Shown here: in pieces, positions 2,951 through 24,500 of the stretch | How the letters are laid out: each line of letters starts with the position of its first letter | Position numbering within the stretch: position 1 is the first letter of the stretch | Assembly (NCBI GenBank): GCA_005882775.1 | Contig: VBDY01000127.1 | Coordinates: 1-38,625, forward strand | From: Chloroflexota bacterium | Lineage (GTDB): Bacteria > Chloroflexota > Dormibacteria > CF-121 | Length of the DNA stretch: 38,625 bases | Direction of reading: 5' to 3' | Position numbers and translations under genes: made by a program | The notes under the pieces: model-generated | What the model was told of the DNA's origin: nothing | What the model saw: only the letters and a program-made list of their open reading frames with translations | The model's database searches: none

Positions 2951-3517
2951 TTGCCGGACGGGAGCCAAGACGAGCGGGAACTGGTCGAGCGGGCAAAACG
3001 CGACCCCGATGCGTTCGGGGCGCTCTATGACCGTTATTTTCCACAGATCTACCGCTTCGCCTATTCCCGGCTCCGCGAACAATCGCTGGCGGAGGATGTC
3101 ACCCAGGAGGTGTTTTTCAAGGCGCTAAGGAACATGGGGCGTTACACCTACAGCGGCCATCCCTTCTCTTCCTGGCTCTACCAGATCGCGCTGAACGCGG
3201 TCGCCGACCATTACCGCGGCCAGCGGGGCGAGGTCGAGCTGGAGGAAGCCACCGGGCTTGCCAGCCAGGCACCGGAGGTGGTCGACGAGGTGATCCGCCG
3301 AGATCGAAGCCATCGGGTCTGGACAGCCATCGACCAGCTGCCCAGACAGCAGCGCGCCGCCATGGTCCTCAAGTTCGGAGAGGACCGGAAGATCGACGAG
3401 ATCGCTCAGATCCTGGGAAAGAGCTCGGGCGCGGTCAAGCTGCTGCTCCACCGGGGCGTCGAGCGCCTGCGCCGTGAGCTACCGCAGCTCGAGGCTGAGC
3501 TGGGAACCAAGTCATGA
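2951..3517 (+). CDS. ECF-family RNA polymerase sigma factor
   Basis: Region 2 EDVTQEVFFKALRNMGRY...FSSWLYQIALNAVADHYR and region 4 LPRQQRAAMVLKFGEDRKIDEIAQILGKSSGAVKLLLHRGVERLR. Confidence 0.9.
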   Translation: MPDGSQDERELVERAKRDPDAFGALYDRYFPQIYRFAYSRLREQSLAEDVTQEVFFKALRNMGRYTYSGHPFSSWLYQIALNAVADHYRGQRGEVELEEATGLASQAPEVVDEVIRRDRSHRVWTAIDQLPRQQRAAMVLKFGEDRKIDEIAQILGKSSGAVKLLLHRGVERLRRELPQLEAELGTKS

Positions 3518-5808
3518 CCGATCCTGAACTCGACGATCTGTTCACCGATGCGGCCGACCGTGAAGTGGTCGAGCTGCTGTCTTCGGCGCGTCCGGCCACG
3601 CCGCCGCTGGATCCGCACTTCCGCAACTATCTGCGGACGCAGCTGATGGCCGAAGCTCGCAAGACCCTACCCAGGCGTGAGCGGGCCCCCTGGTTCAGCT
3701 GGCGCCTGCCGAGCCCGCCGCTGGCTATGGCCGCGGTGGCGGCCGGGTTCCTGATCGTCCTCGGCTTCGAGATTGCACTGCTGCAGCGGGGCGGCTCTCA
3801 GGCCCCGGTCGCCGCCGACATCCACCTGGTCAACGGCAAGAGCAATGTCGCCACCATCGAGCCGATCAAGATCCCGTTCAGCGGCCCCGTTGACAAAGCC
3901 GCCGTTGAGGTCCAGATCCAGATCGAGCCGGCGACCGACTATACGACACGGTGGGACGGGAACACCCTGGTGATCGTGCCCCGGCATCCGCTGGCAGCCA
4001 ACACGAACTACACGGTCAAGTTGAAGCCGGTCGCGACTCCTCAGCCCAACCAGCCGGCCCCCTCGGCGCAGCCGCAGGTGGTGGTCCACTTCGTAACCGC
4101 CCCGCCGCCCACCCCGCCGGTGGTTGCGCCGACATATAACAGCCAGAACCTGGTCTGGTCGGGCGACAGCCCCATCACCGAGCCGGGGGCGGTCGGCCAG
4201 GCCTCCTGGACACCGGATGGCGAGATCCTGGTCACCCGGCCCGTCTCGACGGGCCAGGCGCAAGGGGCTCAAGGGTCAGCGTCCGCTTCGGGAGGCCAGC
4301 CCTCCAGCTCCGCGACCGGGACAGATATCTGGCTGATGAGCCCCAAGGGTTCCTTCCTGCAGAAGCTCGCAAGCGGAGGACGCTACCCCGCCGCCGCGCC
4401 CGCAGGCGGTCTGTTCGCTTTCTGGCAGATGTCCGGCAACCGCGGCACCCTGCTCTATGGCGCCCTGGATGGAAGCGGTGGGGACCCGGTGGCGCTGGCC
4501 ACCATCGATGGGGCGCCCGACCGCGCCCCGGTCTGGCTCGGGAAAGACCGGGTTGCTTATCTCGACGCCGGCCGGCTGCGCGTCGTCGACCTCCACGGAG
4601 CCCAGGTCCAGCTCGCCTCCACCGTGAATGTTTCCGGCAGCCTGGCCGGATCCCCCGACGGAACCCTGATCGCCGCCGAGACCCTGTCCGGCTCCTCTAT
4701 CTACGACGCCGGCTCAGGCAAGGTATCGAAACCACTTCCCCAGGGGGCGACCGGTTTCAGCTGGTCGAGCTCGAACGACCTTGCCTTCGTGATCGAGCAA
4801 CCTGGCAACCCGCAGCTCAGGCTTCTGGCCCACGACCAGACGGCTTCAACCCAGGTCTATGCCGCGCCGGTCAACCGGAGCTGGACCGATCTGAGCTGGT
4901 CACCCGACGGTCATGCCGTCCTCTTCGCCAGCCGGCCCGCCTCGGCAGCTCCCGGCGAATTCTCGAGGACCTATCTGATCAACGCCGACGGTCAAGGCGG
5001 TCCCGTGCTGTTCGGCGGGGACGGTGCGGAATACGCGGCTCCCCGCTGGTCACCGTCCGGCACCATGGTCCTCTTCAGCCGGGCGGACGAGGGCTCGGGC
5101 ATCTCCAAGCTCTGGGTAGCCAACGTCACCGTCCAGCCGAGTGCGCTCGACCGGGCCGAGAACAGCGCCCTGGCCGAGGTCGACACATTCATGCAGGCCC
5201 GTCTCAAGGGTGACCTCACCGCCGCCCAGGCAGAGCTCGACGCCAATGGCCTGGCGAAGTATCAGTCCGGGGCGATGTCCCTGGCCAGCCCCTCAGGACA
5301 GCATTACGCACGGCGCTATGTCGTCAGCGTCCAGCTGATCAGCGCCGGCAAGTTCCTGGTCGGACTACGGCTGGTACTGGCGGATACCGCGAACCGGGAG
5401 ACGAGCTATGTGGACGAGCACCTGACGGTGATCGCCCAGGGTCCTAAATTCGTTATTGATGACATCGTCCAGGCGCCGGCGGTTCAGCTCGGCAAGGGAC
5501 CCACCGTGGTATCCGTCCAGGTACAAGCCAACAAGCCCGGCCCGCTGGTGCTGGTCCAGTTTGACTCCGACCTCGACCCGTCCACGATCACCAGCGCGAG
5601 CGTCTTCGTGCGTGACGACAGCGGGCAGGTTCGGTCGGAAACCCCCACCTACGACCGCACGACGCACCTGGTCACGCTGTCAGTGAAGCTAAAGCCCGGC
5701 AACACCTACCGGTTGGTGGTGACTACGAGCGTTACCGACATCAACGGGCATACGGTCGCCCAGCAGTTCGAATCGCCGATCCAGCCCGCCCAGGCGGGCG
5801 GCGGCTAA
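3514..5808 (+). CDS. Large membrane anti-sigma-like protein with Ig-like (Big_5/SbsA-type) and beta-propeller (WD40/TolB-like) regions
   Basis: ATGA overlap with the ECF gene; N-terminal cytoplasmic segment, one TM (LAMAAVAAGFLIVLGFEIALL), Ig-like IKIPFSGPVDKAAVEVQIQIEPATDYTTRWDGNTLVIVPRHPLAANTNYTVKL, repeated W/SPDG propeller motifs, second Ig-like VQFDSDLDPSTITSASVFVRDDSG...LKPGNTYRLVVTTSVTDINGHTVA. Confidence 0.75.
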   Translation: MTDPELDDLFTDAADREVVELLSSARPATPPLDPHFRNYLRTQLMAEARKTLPRRERAPWFSWRLPSPPLAMAAVAAGFLIVLGFEIALLQRGGSQAPVAADIHLVNGKSNVATIEPIKIPFSGPVDKAAVEVQIQIEPATDYTTRWDGNTLVIVPRHPLAANTNYTVKLKPVATPQPNQPAPSAQPQVVVHFVTAPPPTPPVVAPTYNSQNLVWSGDSPITEPGAVGQASWTPDGEILVTRPVSTGQAQGAQGSASASGGQPSSSATGTDIWLMSPKGSFLQKLASGGRYPAAAPAGGLFAFWQMSGNRGTLLYGALDGSGGDPVALATIDGAPDRAPVWLGKDRVAYLDAGRLRVVDLHGAQVQLASTVNVSGSLAGSPDGTLIAAETLSGSSIYDAGSGKVSKPLPQGATGFSWSSSNDLAFVIEQPGNPQLRLLAHDQTASTQVYAAPVNRSWTDLSWSPDGHAVLFASRPASAAPGEFSRTYLINADGQGGPVLFGGDGAEYAAPRWSPSGTMVLFSRADEGSGISKLWVANVTVQPSALDRAENSALAEVDTFMQARLKGDLTAAQAELDANGLAKYQSGAMSLASPSGQHYARRYVVSVQLISAGKFLVGLRLVLADTANRETSYVDEHLTVIAQGPKFVIDDIVQAPAVQLGKGPTVVSVQVQANKPGPLVLVQFDSDLDPSTITSASVFVRDDSGQVRSETPTYDRTTHLVTLSVKLKPGNTYRLVVTTSVTDINGHTVAQQFESPIQPAQAGGG

Positions 5809-7262
5809 CCGCCCTCGCTGACCGCCACCACACCGGCGATGGCGGCCGCGATTTCCGGGCTCCCATAGAGGGGCTCAAGGGGAGAGCCTTCATCGGTGAA
5901 GGCGCGCGTCCGCTCCAACAGGCCGCGATGCTCCTGGATAAAGTAGGTCGAGATCCGACCCTCAAGAAAGTCGGGCTCCTCCAGGATGGCACGGTGAAAC
6001 GGGATGGTGGTCCGTGGACCCGTGAGGACGAACTCGGATAGAGCTCGCCGGCCCCGCCCGATGGCCTGGGCTCGGTCGGCGCCGGACACGATCAGCTTGA
6101 GGAGCAGCGAATCGAAATGGGGGGAGACGTCCTGGTGGGGCCGGATGCCTGAATCCACACGCACGCCTGGACCGGTTGGCGGCGCGTAACGCTTGATCCG
6201 TCGGGGTGTCGGCAGGAAGTTATTGGCGGGGTCCTCGGCATTGATCCGAAACTCGATGGCATGGCCGCGTGGAGAGGGATATCCCTGCGCGGGCAGGCTC
6301 TCTCCGGACGCGACCCGGATCTGCTCGCGGACCAGGTCGATCCCCAGCACGGTCTCGGTGATCGGGTGCTCGACCTGGAGTCTGGTGTTCATCTCCAGGA
6401 AGTAGAAGTCGTCGCCGGCAACGATGAATTCGATGGTGCCGGCATTCTCGTATCGGACGGCCGCCGCAGCCCGGACCGCCGACTCCGCCATGGCCTGGCG
6501 ACGCTGCTCGCTGAGCCCGACCGCGGGTGTTTCTTCGAGCAACTTTTGATGCCTCCGCTGGATGGAGCACTCGCGCTCGCCCAGGGCAAGGGTGGTCCCC
6601 TGGGAATCCGCCAGAACCTGCATCTCGATATGCCTTGGGTGCTCGAGGTAGCGCTCCAGATACACGTCCCCGCTGCCGAATGACGACTGGGCGGCTCGGC
6701 GGCAGGCGTCGAACGCCGCGGGTAGCTCCTCCGGCCGCTGCGCGACTCGCATGCCGATGCCCCCGCCGCCCGCGGAGGCCTTGACCAGCACGGGGTAGCC
6801 GACTCGCTCCGCTTCCCGCAGCGCGGTCTGCGAGTCGGGGAGCGACCCGCTCCCGGGTGCGATCGGGACACCCGCTTCGGACATCCGCTTGCGGGCGGCC
6901 ACCTTGTCGCCCATGGCGCGCATGCTGTCCGCCGACGGCCCGATGAAGCGGATCCCCGCCCCGGCACAAGCATCGGCGAAAGCCGGATTCTCCGAGAGAA
7001 ACCCGTAGCCGGGATGAACTGCATCAGCACCGTGTCGCTCCGCCGCCGCAAGGATCTGTTCGATGTCCAGGTAGGCAGCTCGCGGGGACGGCCCCTGGAG
7101 ATGCACGGCCTCGTGCGCAAAAAACACGTGAGGCGCCCGTCGATCCGGTTCGGCGAAGACGCCGACGGTCTCGATTCCCATCTCGCGGCAGGTCCGAATG
7201 ATCCGCATGGCGATCTCGCCTCGATTGGCGATCAGCACTTTCCGGATGGGGGTACTAGCCAA
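5805..7262 (-). CDS. accC: Biotin carboxylase subunit (AccC/PycA-like)
   Basis: KVLIANRGEIAMRIIRTCREMGI, VHPGYGFLSENPAFA, KASAGGGGIGMR, FLEMNTRLQVEHPITE motifs. Confidence 0.93.
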   Translation of the reverse strand: MASTPIRKVLIANRGEIAMRIIRTCREMGIETVGVFAEPDRRAPHVFFAHEAVHLQGPSPRAAYLDIEQILAAAERHGADAVHPGYGFLSENPAFADACAGAGIRFIGPSADSMRAMGDKVAARKRMSEAGVPIAPGSGSLPDSQTALREAERVGYPVLVKASAGGGGIGMRVAQRPEELPAAFDACRRAAQSSFGSGDVYLERYLEHPRHIEMQVLADSQGTTLALGERECSIQRRHQKLLEETPAVGLSEQRRQAMAESAVRAAAAVRYENAGTIEFIVAGDDFYFLEMNTRLQVEHPITETVLGIDLVREQIRVASGESLPAQGYPSPRGHAIEFRINAEDPANNFLPTPRRIKRYAPPTGPGVRVDSGIRPHQDVSPHFDSLLLKLIVSGADRAQAIGRGRRALSEFVLTGPRTTIPFHRAILEEPDFLEGRISTYFIQEHRGLLERTRAFTDEGSPLEPLYGSPEIAAAIAGVVAVSEGG

Positions 7263-9051
7263 TCGTCATCAGGACCTCATTCGGGGCGACGATCGAGCCC
7301 TCGCGAGCATAAATCTCGCGGACGGTGCCCGCGACCGTCGCCACGATGTCGTTCTGCATCTTCATCGCCTCCAGCACCACCACCACGTCGCCAAGCTTGA
7401 CCCGGTCACCCGCAGCGACCTTGACCTTGACCACCATGCCCTGCATGGGCGCCTGGATGGCTCCGTCCGTCACGCCAGACTTAGCCGGCGGCGGCCCCGA
7501 GGCGACTTGCGCTTCGCTCGACGCCCGGACGCCGACACCCTCCCCCTTGACCTTCACCCGATAGGTTTCACCATCGACCTCTACCGTGAACTCACGCATT
7601 CCCGAAACCTCGGGAGACGCGGCCACCGCAGGAGCAGCTGGACTGGAGCGCGGGGATTCTTCCGCCTGCCTGGGAACCGCGGCCGCCGGTGCCGGCTCTG
7701 CCCGGGGCGCCGGCCGCAGGATCCCCGGAGCCTCTTCCGGGAAGAGCACGTAGGTCAATACCTGGTCAGGGCCGGTGGGCGTCAATCCCTGCCGGCGCAT
7801 CGCCTTTCTGGCCCGTTCCATGGCCGGTTCCAGCAGGTCGGCCGGGCGCATCGTGATCGGTTCAGAGCTTCCCAATGCTCGACGCCGGACCTCGGGATCC
7901 ACCGCATGAGGTGGCGCACCATACAGGCCCTTGATATAGTCCCGAAACGGTTGCTCGATGGACTGGTAGCGCTTCTCCCCCAGAGTATTCGCCAATGCCT
8001 GACGCGCTGCGATCTGGTTGATGGGGGCGGCCAGCGGCGGATAACCCATCTCCTGGCGGACGTTGACCAGCTCCTGCAGCAGGTGCTCATATCGGTCGAG
8101 CGCGTTGCGCTCCCGTAGGGTCTTGATCAGGTCGGCCAACACGGGCGCCGGCAGCTGGTGATCGAGGATATGGATGTCGTTACGGAACGCGATCGGATCT
8201 TGAAATTCGGCGTACTCGTCGTGGAGCTCGTCAAAGTAGCGGTTCGCCTGGCCGACCAGCCCCAGGTCGAGGCCGGTCTCGTGGGGACTTCCGCGAAACG
8301 CGGCCACCATGGTTTCCGTCGCGGGCTGAGAGGAGCCCCAAGCCATCGCCGACAACGCAGTGTCGATACCGGTAGCGCCTGCTTCGGCGGCGGCGAAATA
8401 GGTGATGGGTGCCAGTGCGGTCGAGCTATGCGAGTGGATCGACACCGGTAGTCCGACCGTCTTGACCAGCTCGGTGACCAGACGTCGCGCGGCCGAGGGA
8501 TCGAGGATGCCGGCCACGTCCTCGAGGCCAATCACGTGGCAGCCAAGCTTCTTCAATCGTCCGGCCCAGGTGACCATCCGAGCCTGGTCCTGGCCTGGGC
8601 TCGGGCTGTAGACCAGAGCCCCTATCACCCGTGCACCGGCACGCCGCGCCGCCTCGATGGGGACTTCGAGATTTCGAAGGTCGTTCAGCGGGTCGAACAT
8701 CCGGATCACGGCAATACCGTCCTGGACCGCTTGCTCGATAAAGGCGCGCACCACGTCGTCCGGCTGATGCTTGTTGCTGATCAGGGTCTGACCGCGAATC
8801 AACATCTGCAGCGGCGTCCTCACGATTGACGCCTTGATAGCACGCAGCCGGTGCCAGGGGTCTTCCTGGAGCAATCGAAGTGAGGCGGCAAAGGTGGCGC
8901 CACCCCAGGCGTCGAGTGCTTCATAACCGATCCGGTCCAGGGTCTCCGCGATTGGGAGAACGTGCTGAAGCTTGAGCCGGCCCTGCACAAGACTTTGCTG
9001 CGCGTCGCGCAGAACGGTCTCTGTGATCAAGACCTTGGGCACGCGTCCCAT
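7255..9051 (-). CDS. Carboxyltransferase + C-terminal biotinyl domain protein (pyruvate carboxylase subunit B / oxaloacetate decarboxylase alpha-like); divergent active site
   Basis: WGGATFAASLRLLQEDPWHRLR, DPLNDLRN, SIHSHSSTALA, SQPATETMVAAFRG and C-terminal VVVLEAMKMQNDIVATVAGTV biotinylation site; overlaps accC by 8 nt. Confidence 0.85.
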   Translation of the reverse strand: MGRVPKVLITETVLRDAQQSLVQGRLKLQHVLPIAETLDRIGYEALDAWGGATFAASLRLLQEDPWHRLRAIKASIVRTPLQMLIRGQTLISNKHQPDDVVRAFIEQAVQDGIAVIRMFDPLNDLRNLEVPIEAARRAGARVIGALVYSPSPGQDQARMVTWAGRLKKLGCHVIGLEDVAGILDPSAARRLVTELVKTVGLPVSIHSHSSTALAPITYFAAAEAGATGIDTALSAMAWGSSQPATETMVAAFRGSPHETGLDLGLVGQANRYFDELHDEYAEFQDPIAFRNDIHILDHQLPAPVLADLIKTLRERNALDRYEHLLQELVNVRQEMGYPPLAAPINQIAARQALANTLGEKRYQSIEQPFRDYIKGLYGAPPHAVDPEVRRRALGSSEPITMRPADLLEPAMERARKAMRRQGLTPTGPDQVLTYVLFPEEAPGILRPAPRAEPAPAAAVPRQAEESPRSSPAAPAVAASPEVSGMREFTVEVDGETYRVKVKGEGVGVRASSEAQVASGPPPAKSGVTDGAIQAPMQGMVVKVKVAAGDRVKLGDVVVVLEAMKMQNDIVATVAGTVREIYAREGSIVAPNEVLMTIG

Positions 9052-9111: not shown

Positions 9112-9588
9112 TCAGGCGGGCCGGGGTGCCCTCATTTCGTCGCGCTTTTGCACGATTCGCGCCCGGAGCGCCGGCTCAGTAAGCGACAGGATCACGGCCG
9201 CGAGATGCGCCGCGTTTTTAGCGCCAGGTTCGCCGATGGCCACCGTCGCCACCGGGATGCCTGCCGGCATCTGGGCCATCGACAGCAGGGCATCGAGTCC
9301 ACCCAGCGCCCCCGCCGACATCGGCACGCCGATCACGGGCAGCGTGCTCCATGCCGCCACCACACCCGGCAGATGCGCCGCCCCACCAGCCGCCGCGACC
9401 AGCACCCGCAGGCCACGACCCTCAGCCTCGGTCGCCCATCTCCTGCAGCCCTCGGGGTCGCGGTGCGCCGAGCGGACCACGACCTCGTAGCCCACCCCAT
9501 AGCCGTCCAGGACCTCGCAGCATCCCTGGATGGTCGGCCGATCCGACTCGCTCCCCATCACGATCCCGACCACAATCGCCTCGCTCAC
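9112..9588 (-). CDS. purE: 5-(carboxyamino)imidazole ribonucleotide mutase PurE (class I-like)
   Basis: [61 protein letters not shown]. Confidence 0.93.
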
Positions 9589-10868
9589 GAGGCAACACTC
9601 GCGGTGATCTCGCGCTGGGCAATGTCGCGGCGATAGCTCATTCCCTCAAAGCTAACCCGCTGCGCGCTCCGGTAGACGCGGTCGCGGGCGTCCGCCAGGG
9701 TGTCACCAAGGGCGACGAGCGTCAGGACCCTTCCGCCCGCTGTCCGGTACCCGTCGGGAGCCGCAACCGTCCCGCCATGGAAAGCAAATACGTCGGGCTC
9801 CAGCCTGGACAGTCCCTCGACCGGGTGGCCGGTCTGGTAGTGGCCCGGGTACCCGCGGGAAGCGAGCACGACGCCGACGCTGACCCGGTCAGACCAGGAG
9901 AGTGATTCCGGGGAGAGATTGCCTGCGGCGGCAGCCTGGAAGGCCGGGAGGACGTCACCCGACAACCGCGGGAGTATCACCTGGGTCTCGGGGTCGCCGA
10001 ATCGCGCGTTGAACTCCAGCACCTCCACCCCGGTCGGACGCTGGATCAGACCCGCGTAGAGGCAGCCGCGGTAGGGCGTACCCCGCGCCCGCAGCTCGTC
10101 GACCACCGGCTGGAACACCGTCGCCACAGCCGCCCTGACGTCGTCATCGGTGAAGAAACCTGGGGGTGAGTAACCACCCATCCCACCGGTGTTCGGGCCG
10201 CGGTCATCGTCCAAGGCGCGTTTGTAGTCACAGGCGGGGACCATCGGTATGACCCGCTCGCCATCGACCAGGGCCAGGAGGGAGACCTCCCTTCCCTCAA
10301 CCCGCTCTTCAAGGAGGACCTGGTCGGCGGCCGCGCCAACAGCACGACTGAGCATGAAAGTGTCGATCGCTTCCAGGGTCTCCGGAATGTCATCCGGCAC
10401 GATTGACCCCTTTCCCTTGGCCAGGCCATCCGCCTTGACCACGAAGGGCCGGCCCTGCTTCTGCACGTAGGCCTTAGCCGCGGACGCCTCCGTGAAGACC
10501 GCAAACGCAGGGGTCGGAACCCCGACTTTCTGCATCAGGGTCTTGGCGAACACCTTGCTGCTCTCGATCCTGCCGGCAGCGGCGGTTGGGCCCAGGGCGA
10601 GCCGCCCGACGCTGGTGAGCCGGTCCACCACGCCGGCGGCGACTGCTCCTTCGGGGCCGACGATGGTGAGGTCTATCTCACGCTCGTGGGCAAGCCGGGC
10701 GATTCCATCGACGTCCGTGGTTGGCACTGGAACGTTGACCGCGATCGCCCCGGTCGCCGCGTTACCGGGTGCGCAGAAGACCGCCCGACTCAGAGGGCTC
10801 TGCAAAACCTTCCAGGTGAGCGCATGCTCGCGCGCCCCGGTCCCGACGATGAGTACGTTCACTCCCAC
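9585..10868 (-). CDS. purD: Phosphoribosylamine-glycine ligase
   Basis: [52 protein letters not shown]. An internal GTG at 10862 (GTGA overlap with the guaA stop) is an alternative start. Confidence 0.94.
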
Positions 10869-12547
10869 TCGATGGTCGAGGGCGGCTTCGACGAGATGTC
10901 ATAAACGACGCGATTGATTCCTGGCACCTCATTGACGATGCGGCTTGAAATCTTCGCCAGCACGTCGTAAGGCAATCGCGCCCAATCAGCGGTCATACCG
11001 TCCTCGCTCTGAACGGCGCGGATCGCCACCACATTGCCGTACGTTCGGCCATCGCCCATCACCCCGACACTCTGCAAAGGGGTTAGCACGGCAAAGGACT
11101 GCCAGAGAGACCGGTATAGGCCGGCGGCCTTGATCTCATCGATCACAATCCAGTCCGCCGCGCGTAGCGTCTCGAGCCGCTGGCGTGTGACCTCTCCGAT
11201 GATGCGTACAGCCAGGCCGGGCCCGGGAAACGGCTGTCGATAGACCATGTCGTCGGGCAAGCCCAGCTCCGTGCCGATGGCCCGGACTTCGTCCTTGAAC
11301 AGGTAGCGCAGCGGCTCGATCAGGGTGAATCGCAGGTCTGCTGGAAGCCCGCCGACGTTGTGGTGGGTCTTGATTCGCTGAGCATGGTGCGTGTCGTGGC
11401 TGGTGCTCTCGATCACATCCGGGTAGAGGGTTCCCTGCGCCAGAAACTGGACACCCGATAGCCGGGCGGCGGCTCGGTCGAAGACCTCGATGAAAGCAGC
11501 GCCCACGCGACGTCGCTTGTCCTCTGGGTCGGTGACGCCGGCCAGGGTTCTTAGAAAATCCGCCGAAGCGTCGACCGATGCGAGCGAGATCCCCAGGTGC
11601 CGGTTCATGACCTCTTCGACCCGGCGTCCCTCGTCGCGGCGGAGCAGCCCATGATCGACGAAAAGGCAGGTCAGCTGGCCGGGCACGGCGCGATGCACGA
11701 GGGTGGCGCAGACGGCTGAGTCGACGCCGCCGGAAAGCGCGCACAAAACCTTGCCGGTGCCGACCTGCTCCCGGATCCGCAGGACAGCCTCCTCGATAAA
11801 AGCAGCCGGCTTCCACAATCCGCGACAGCCGGCTACCTGGTAGAGGAAGTTCGACAGGATCTCGCGGCCCTGAGGCGTATGCATCACCTCTGGGTGGAAC
11901 TGGATGCCGAAGCGGCCGTGGTCGTCACCGATGGCGGCGATTGCCGAGTTCGCAGAGTGCGCGATCGGGCGAAACCCGGGTGGAGCTTTCAGGATCGTGT
12001 CTCCGTGGCTCATCCAGACCGCCAGCTCGGGCGGGAGGTCCTCGAAGAGCCTGCCGGCATCGTCGACCTGGAGGCGGGCCGGTCCATATTCCCTACGCGC
12101 ACTTCCCGCGACCTGCCCACCGAGCTGGTGGGCGAGCAGCTGCATCCCGTAGCAGATGCCCAGCACCGGAACTCCCGAGGTCAAGGCCGCGGGGTCGCAG
12201 AGGGGCGCCTCCGGCTCGTAGACGCTTGCCGGCCCGCCCGAAAGGATGAGTGCCTTGGGAGCGCGGCCTCGAAGGGTCTCCCAGGCTGTGGTCCCGGGAA
12301 TGAGCTCGCAATAGACGCCTGACTCGCGCACGCGCCGAGCGATCAGCTGACTGTACTGGGAGCCGAAATCGAGGACCAGGACCAGTTCCTGCGTCGGCGG
12401 CGCCTGAGTCAGGGCGGGGCTCTGGCCTGCGGTTATTTGCCCATCCCCACGTGCTGGGCCTGCTGGAAAAGCTTGCCCTCGCTCTGGATGGAGGGCGCAA
12501 TCACCAGTTCGGTCTCCTGAAAAGCTCGCAGGTCGGGTGCCCCGCAC
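10859..12547 (-). CDS. guaA: GMP synthase (glutamine-hydrolysing); true N-terminus uncertain (expected around 12412-12436)
   Basis: [63 protein letters not shown]-terminal [12 protein letters not shown]. The only ATG/GTG/TTG in frame upstream of the conserved N-terminus is GTG at 12547, inside guaB3. Confidence 0.92.
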
Positions 12548-13638
12548 ACCCCCATCGCGGAGCGGAGAGCGCCGGCAAGGTTCTGTGTACCGTCGTCCAC
12601 TCGAGCCGGACCCAGGATGACCTCACGAAGCGAGCCCCGCTGGCCAACCTTGATCCGCGTTCCACGGGGCAGATTCGGATCCGGCGTAGCCATACCCCAA
12701 TGATTTCCATGCCCAGCCGCCTCTTTGGTGCCCGCCAGGATGGAGCCGATCATCACCGCATCCGCGCCCGATGCAAATGCTTTGGTCACGTCGCCGCCCA
12801 CCCGCATGCCGCCATCTGTGATCACCTGCACCCGCCGCCCAGTTTCCCGAAGGTGCGTTTCGCGCGCCGCCGCCACGTCGCTGGTGGCGGTCACCTGCGG
12901 GACGCCGACGCCCAGCACACCTCGAGTGGTGCACGCGGCCCCGGGCCCAACCCCGACCAGGATGCCGGCGATGCCAGTCCGCATCAATTCGAGCGCCGTC
13001 TGGTACTCGACGCAGTTTCCGGCGATGATTGGGATGTCGACACTAGCGCAGAGCGCATCGAAAGAGAGTTGCTCGTAAGAGCGCGAGACGTGTCGGGCGG
13101 TCAGGACCGTTCCCTGCACCACCAGGCAGCCCGCTCCCGCCTCCTGCACGAGACGAGCCCGGCGGCCGGCATGGGCAGGAACAGTTGAGACACCGACCGG
13201 GACACCCGCGCGCCTGACGGCGGCAATCCTCTCGCTGATCAGGTGCTCGCGAACAGGTGCCTGGTACACCCGCTGGAGTAACGCATTGATCGTCTCGCGC
13301 GGGGCTTCCGCGACCTCCAGCAAAACCCCGGTTGGATCCTCGTATCGCGTCTGCAATCCGTCCAGGTTGAGTACGGCAAGGCCGCCCAGCCGGCCCATCT
13401 CGATCGCGAACGCAACATCCACGACGCCATCCATGGCGGCGGCAAAGATGGGAATAGCAAGCCGCAGCGGCCCGAAGCTGACACTGATATCGACCTCCAG
13501 GGGGTTGATCGTGATCCCCCCGGGAACCAGGGCGACATCGTCGAAACCATAGGCTCGCCGGGCTTTCTTGAAGCGGCCTAGCTCGACCGAAGCCTGCGTC
13601 TCAGCCTCGATCGGGGCCACCGGCGCACGCACACCCAT
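12433..13638 (-). CDS. guaB3: IMP dehydrogenase family protein, GuaB3 type
   Basis: [81 protein letters not shown]. Confidence 0.88.
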
Positions 13639-24247: not shown

Positions 24248-24290
24248 ATCGTCGCCATGATAACAGCACGTCCGTGAGAGAATCGCGCAC

Positions 24291-24500
24291 GTGGTGATCA
24301 AGGCCGAGCTGGCCGCGAATGTATGGAAGGTGCTGGCAAGCGAGGGTCAGCGCGTCCAGACGGATGAGACCCTCATGATCCTGGAGTCGATGAAGATGGA
24401 AATTCCGGTGACGGCGCCCAGCACGGGCAGCGTGAAACGGATTCACGTCAAGGAGGGCGACACGGTCCAGGAAGGCCAGGCGCTGGCCGAGCTGGATTAG
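24291..24500 (+). CDS. Stand-alone biotin/lipoyl attachment domain protein (TB7.3-like)
   Basis: 69 aa: [77 protein letters not shown] biotinylation motif. Confidence 0.88.

Follow-up and report, generated by a model that had tools for sequence, protein, structure and literature searches.

Results

Gene content of the locus

We analyzed a window of 38,625 nt, contig VBDY01000127.1 of assembly GCA_005882775.1, from the class Dormibacteria (Chloroflexota), a group of soil bacteria known without cultures. On its reverse strand, a gene at 7255..9051 encodes a 598-aa PycB/OadA-like protein with an altered carboxyltransferase (CT) active site and a C-terminal biotinyl domain; its coordinates, strand and frame, as well as its EAMKMQ biotin site, had been given correctly in an earlier note on this DNA. 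The stop end of this CT gene overlaps by 8 bases the start of accC (5805..7262, reverse strand), which encodes an AccC/PycA-like protein, the sole biotin carboxylase of the genome. On the other side lie, all on the reverse strand, purE (9112..9588; TIGR01162 above cut-off), encoding an N5-CAIR mutase with the class I signature GGAAHLPG, purD (9585..10868; TIGR00877 above cut-off) and, upstream in conserved order, guaA- and guaB-type genes (10859..13638) named by eye from the sequence of their open reading frames. Two further purine genes on the same strand, purC (532-1413; PF01259) and purB (1413-2723; PF00206 with PF10397), are found nearby. Positions 2951-5808 of the forward strand carry a gene for a sigma-70-type factor followed by one for a large protein containing repeats of the bacterial Ig-like and WD40-like types, a pair that is conserved across the class and convergent with accC.

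Active-site residues of the CT protein

The domain order of the CT protein, HMGL-like barrel, PYC_OADA and biotinyl domain, is that of PycB/OadA-type enzymes, and its top whole-protein model is PRK09282, 'pyruvate carboxylase subunit B', with a score above the cut-off. The C-terminal domain is of the carrier type (PF00364), with Lys564 of EAMKMQ (7360..7362, reverse strand) as the predicted biotinylation site. Because this protein provides the single PF02436 match of the assembly, a second, canonical CT copy was ruled out.

Residues were assigned by alignment to transcarboxylase 5S, with 5S numbering anchored on Met186Ile of PDB entry 1u5j, which places the Lys two residues upstream at K184 and the Asp of LRD at D23. 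The metal-ligand set of Asp, carbamylated Lys and two His is incomplete. Asp16 (9004..9006, equivalent to D23) and the His pair of H206-S-H208 (8428..8436) are kept, and Glu177 (8521..8523) aligns with and replaces the Lys that is carbamylated in 5S (K184), OadA and PycB. The proton-shuttle Thr/Ser is replaced by Ala306 (8134..8136), and AP stands where canonical CTs have GG; all these codons lie on the reverse strand. The alignment thus bears out the earlier note on the Lys-to-Glu and Thr/Ser-to-Ala exchanges, the loss of GG and the retention of both His ligands and SQPATE. It also reveals two changes absent from that list, Asn93 for the canonical Tyr and Gln18 for the His after RDA. A supposed Asp-to-Glu change of the metal ligand in DTTLRDAHQS was mistaken: the metal Asp is that of LRD, and the first letter of the motif sits five residues before it and is also Glu in 5S and in two Holophaga homologues that are canonical at the other positions. 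The first letter of ETVLRD was therefore rejected as a metal ligand. The protein is PycB-like and lacks both the complete ligand set and the shuttle residue by which PycB is defined, so that the name 'pyruvate carboxylase' is unwarranted.

Among characterized systems, PycB of the two-subunit pyruvate carboxylase from Methylobacillus flagellatus (PDB 5ks8) has the same full-length architecture, with about 36% identity in the structure match, and a PycA-like AccC is likewise encoded next door; unlike in PycB, the carbamyl-Lys, shuttle Thr/Ser and GG are replaced. The alpha subunit of oxaloacetate decarboxylase from Vibrio cholerae (OadA; PDB 2nx9) shares the CT fold within 1.5 Å at 40% identity, but the window protein, at 551 bits, falls well short of the OadA equivalog cut-off of 756 bits and its active site is altered. 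Transcarboxylase 5S (PDB 1rqb/1rqh), the template for barrel and metal-site geometry, also has Glu at the start of E-x-x-LRD, but its carbamylated residue is Lys and its shuttle residue Ser, where the window protein has Glu and Ala.

Distribution and residue state across the class

Scanning genome contigs yielded 80 relatives. The survey of the class covered 85 Dormibacteria genomes in four families, f1 to f4, with the window belonging to f1. An orthologue occurs in 82 of the 85 genomes, in single copy in all but one, which rules out that the gene was duplicated and one copy then decayed. A quick tree, some branches of which are long, separated the class proteins as a single clade (support 100) from 13 canonical homologues of archaea, Dehalococcoidia and Holophaga. 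Families f1, f3 and f4 were each recovered as one clade, and two f2 rows (G004 and G006) fell with f3.

The shuttle Thr/Ser is lost in all class proteins (82/82), and EAMKMQ shows no variation in any protein whose C-terminus is present. The metal site is a different matter in each family. It is kept in most f4 members (Asp in 34/35, Lys in 33/35, both His in 35/35), where Glu mostly occupies the position of the shuttle Thr. In f1, Asp and both His are retained with Glu for Lys, and Arg15, Gln19 and Arg86 are also kept; Glu is found in 13/13 of the nearest relatives (69-73% identity) and in 14/14 family members. One His is the sole ligand left in f3, and almost none persists in f2, where the first His is present in 2/19. 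Two f4 proteins on long branches (L140 and L126, from G063 and G064) have Asn and Ala for the carbamyl-Lys and keep both His. The CT domains of L172 and L175 (G013 and G014, genus g13) sit on a very long branch of 2.05 changes per column; no biotin-type carrier other than the CT protein was found in this genus, and within-genus dN/dS is nonetheless low.

A check proposed earlier, a tree of homologues with the substituted positions, thus recovers a conserved Glu/Ala clade, which refutes sequencing error or sporadic decay as the source of the substitutions. The accompanying suggestion of a CT with a different acceptor or chemistry, or of a degenerate one, is upheld as far as the conserved clade goes; the quite different residues of the same orthologue in sister families argue against one new acceptor chemistry shared by all. 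That Glu mimics a carbamyl-Lys is possible from the alignment for the window's family alone, where Glu is fixed (14/14) beside Asp and both His. The loss of most metal ligands in two of four families speaks for relaxation of the CT site on a biotin carrier that was itself retained.

Selection and predicted structure

Pairwise dN/dS values (Nei-Gojobori, 19 pairs, some with dS near saturation) were 0.01-0.21 for the barrel, including families with lost ligands, 0.01-0.18 for the PYC_OADA domain, about 0.1-0.5 for the linker and 0-0.36 for the biotinyl domain. With f2 and f3 providing no exception, the CT protein is under purifying selection class-wide. The modeled structures of the window CT protein and of one f2 protein (mean pLDDT 87.6 and 87.7) superpose on the CT domain of OadA (2nx9) at 1.5 and 1.6 Å, respectively; the CT fold is thus predicted to be intact despite the residue losses. 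Conservation of the former active-site loops within families somewhat exceeds that of the remaining domain; the difference is clear in f3 alone, where 45 of 5,000 random block draws were as high.

Biotin carboxylase, carriers and candidate partners

Exactly one biotin carboxylase C-domain was identified in 78 of the 85 genomes, with more in three and none in four, and the three genomes without a CT protein also lack accC. The AccC motifs that carry the catalytic residues in E. coli biotin carboxylase are intact throughout the four families, f4 reading VNAR for MNTR. AccA- and AccD-type matches were present in 20/20 genomes tested, alongside PccB-type carboxyltransferases; accD, accA and fabH lie side by side in the window's genome. 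No AccB (TIGR00531) exceeded the curated cut-off in any of the 85 genomes, and the best sub-threshold match was usually the biotinyl domain of the CT protein.

Besides the CT protein, only one biotin-type motif was found in the window's genome, ESMKM in a small stand-alone carrier of 78 aa and the PRK05889 family (24264..24497, forward strand; NF004547 above cut-off and motif scan). A similar small carrier adjoins a PccB-type carboxyltransferase in some class genomes; that of the window stands alone. As the window's genome has this second carrier, an argument from necessity is limited to other genera. In G028, G032 and G034 (genus g19) and in G013 (genus g13), motif scan, PF00364 and domain sequences show all remaining Biotin_lipoyl domains to be of the lipoyl type. 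Judged from these sequences, acetyl-CoA carboxylase in these four genomes would have no candidate carrier but the CT protein to go with AccA/AccD, unless the drafts miss one. PEP carboxylase is encoded in the window's genome and in 61/85 genomes overall, with no match in the eight genomes of genus g19 (G027-G034).

Purine genes

The order guaB-guaA-purD-purE-CT-accC is found in most f1, f2 and f4 loci of sufficient length; f3 has guaB-guaA-purD-CT-accC. A purK above cut-off was detected in 14/16 f3 genomes, with fragments in the other two, and purE adjoins purK in the four f3 loci read. None of the 69 f1, f2 and f4 genomes, the window's included, has purK above cut-off. In these three families, the purE at the CT locus carries the class I signature.

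Discussion

We give about an even chance to the view that a two-subunit pyruvate carboxylase was turned into a general biotin-carboxylase/carrier module, with the CT barrel now mainly structural. The conversion of a PycA-like AccC and a PycB-like CT-carrier would predate the diversification of the class. AccC would carboxylate biotin on Lys564 of the PycB-like protein, and the carboxybiotin arm would serve separate carboxyltransferases, AccA/AccD of acetyl-CoA carboxylase first and perhaps PccB-type enzymes as well. The old barrel would have lost oxaloacetate synthesis and been retained as an oligomerization and docking scaffold, its metal site eroding to differing degrees in different families. 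We infer all three of carboxybiotin transfer to AccA/AccD, the scaffold role and the loss of pyruvate activity. The proposed role equals that of AccB; the protein is not AccB by the family test and carries a CT-type barrel.

Several results favor this carrier reading: the shuttle loss throughout the class, the loss of most ligands in f2 and f3 and the invariant EAMKMQ. We also count for it the single class clade, the low barrel dN/dS and the models fitting 2nx9, as well as the single biotin carboxylase of most genomes, the consistent presence of AccA/AccD, the missing AccB and the lipoyl-type nature of the other domains in G028, G032, G034 and G013. In Rhizobium etli pyruvate carboxylase, the T882A exchange, at the corresponding Thr, abolishes CT activity (PMC5895798), which supports a loss of pyruvate chemistry in the class proteins. 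Other results count against the carrier reading. A pure scaffold would not need the metal site that f4 keeps whole in most members and f1 for the most part, and within families the former active-site loops vary no more than the remaining domain and, in f3, less. The sole-carrier claim rests on draft genomes, and in genus g19, which lacks PEP carboxylase, anaplerosis would be unexplained if pyruvate carboxylation were lost. A literature search, largely outside subscription journals, returned no paper on Dormibacteria carboxylases or such a protein; within the same scope, none was found on PycB with acetyl-CoA carboxylase in Chloroflexi or on pseudoenzyme carboxyltransferase carriers.

At least in f1 and f4, the kept ligands could instead belong to a biotin carboxyltransferase that is still metal-dependent and uses a different acceptor or proton shuttle. 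Asp16, His206, His208, Arg15, Gln19 and Arg86 in f1, its family-wide Glu177, the complete ligand set of most f4 proteins and the Glu at their shuttle position are in keeping with such an enzyme. We nevertheless regard it as rather unlikely, given that GG and the shuttle residue are gone class-wide and that orthologues at the same locus in f2 and f3 lost most ligands, which are therefore dispensable for the shared function. An ordinary pyruvate carboxylase tolerant of the substitutions would agree with PRK09282 as the best whole-protein model and with the adjoining AccC; with shuttle residue, GG and carbamyl-Lys all replaced, and the corresponding T882A enzyme dead, it appears improbable.

The purine genes offer a further candidate role. 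AccC shares the ATP-grasp fold of PurK (N5-CAIR synthetase), and a search with the PurK family gave only a weak match for AccC. Conceivably, AccC and the carrier replace PurK, with carboxybiotin carboxylating AIR to N5-CAIR or CAIR together with PurE from the neighboring gene; dependence on biotin would be a novelty relative to PurK. The purE-CT-accC adjacency in the purK-less families, the position of purE beside purK in the f3 loci read and the nearby purB and purC of the window fit this idea. We consider it quite improbable on the genomic data: CT pocket residues differ among f1, f2 and f4, where a conserved pocket would be expected, and in f3 the module stays under selection although purK is present. 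In mycobacteria, purE and purK presumably lie near accA3/accD5 with purK present, and such linkage need not be mechanistic; a literature search for this cluster found no paper naming purK together with acc genes. Moreover, class I PurE is already known to occur without PurK, which has been explained by CO2 supply (PMC3261824).

Sequencing error or a decaying pseudogene, which the lost catalytic residues might suggest, is scarcely credible and was ruled out by clade, synteny and dN/dS values well below 1 in every domain, the 598-aa frame being open and the same residues recurring in 13 other family genomes.

If the carrier reading is true, pyruvate carboxylase, an enzyme of central metabolism, has become a biotin-carrier subunit of other carboxylases throughout the class without losing its fold. 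The families would then form a natural series of metal sites, from kept (f4) through partly changed (f1) to mostly lost (f2 and f3). Fatty-acid synthesis in bacteria with AccA, AccD, a single AccC and no AccB would be explained, and pycB/oadA annotations in Dormibacteria should then not be taken as anaplerotic pyruvate carboxylation. The PurK-less locus also frames a testable question on purine synthesis; were PurK indeed replaced, biotin would be used in this pathway.
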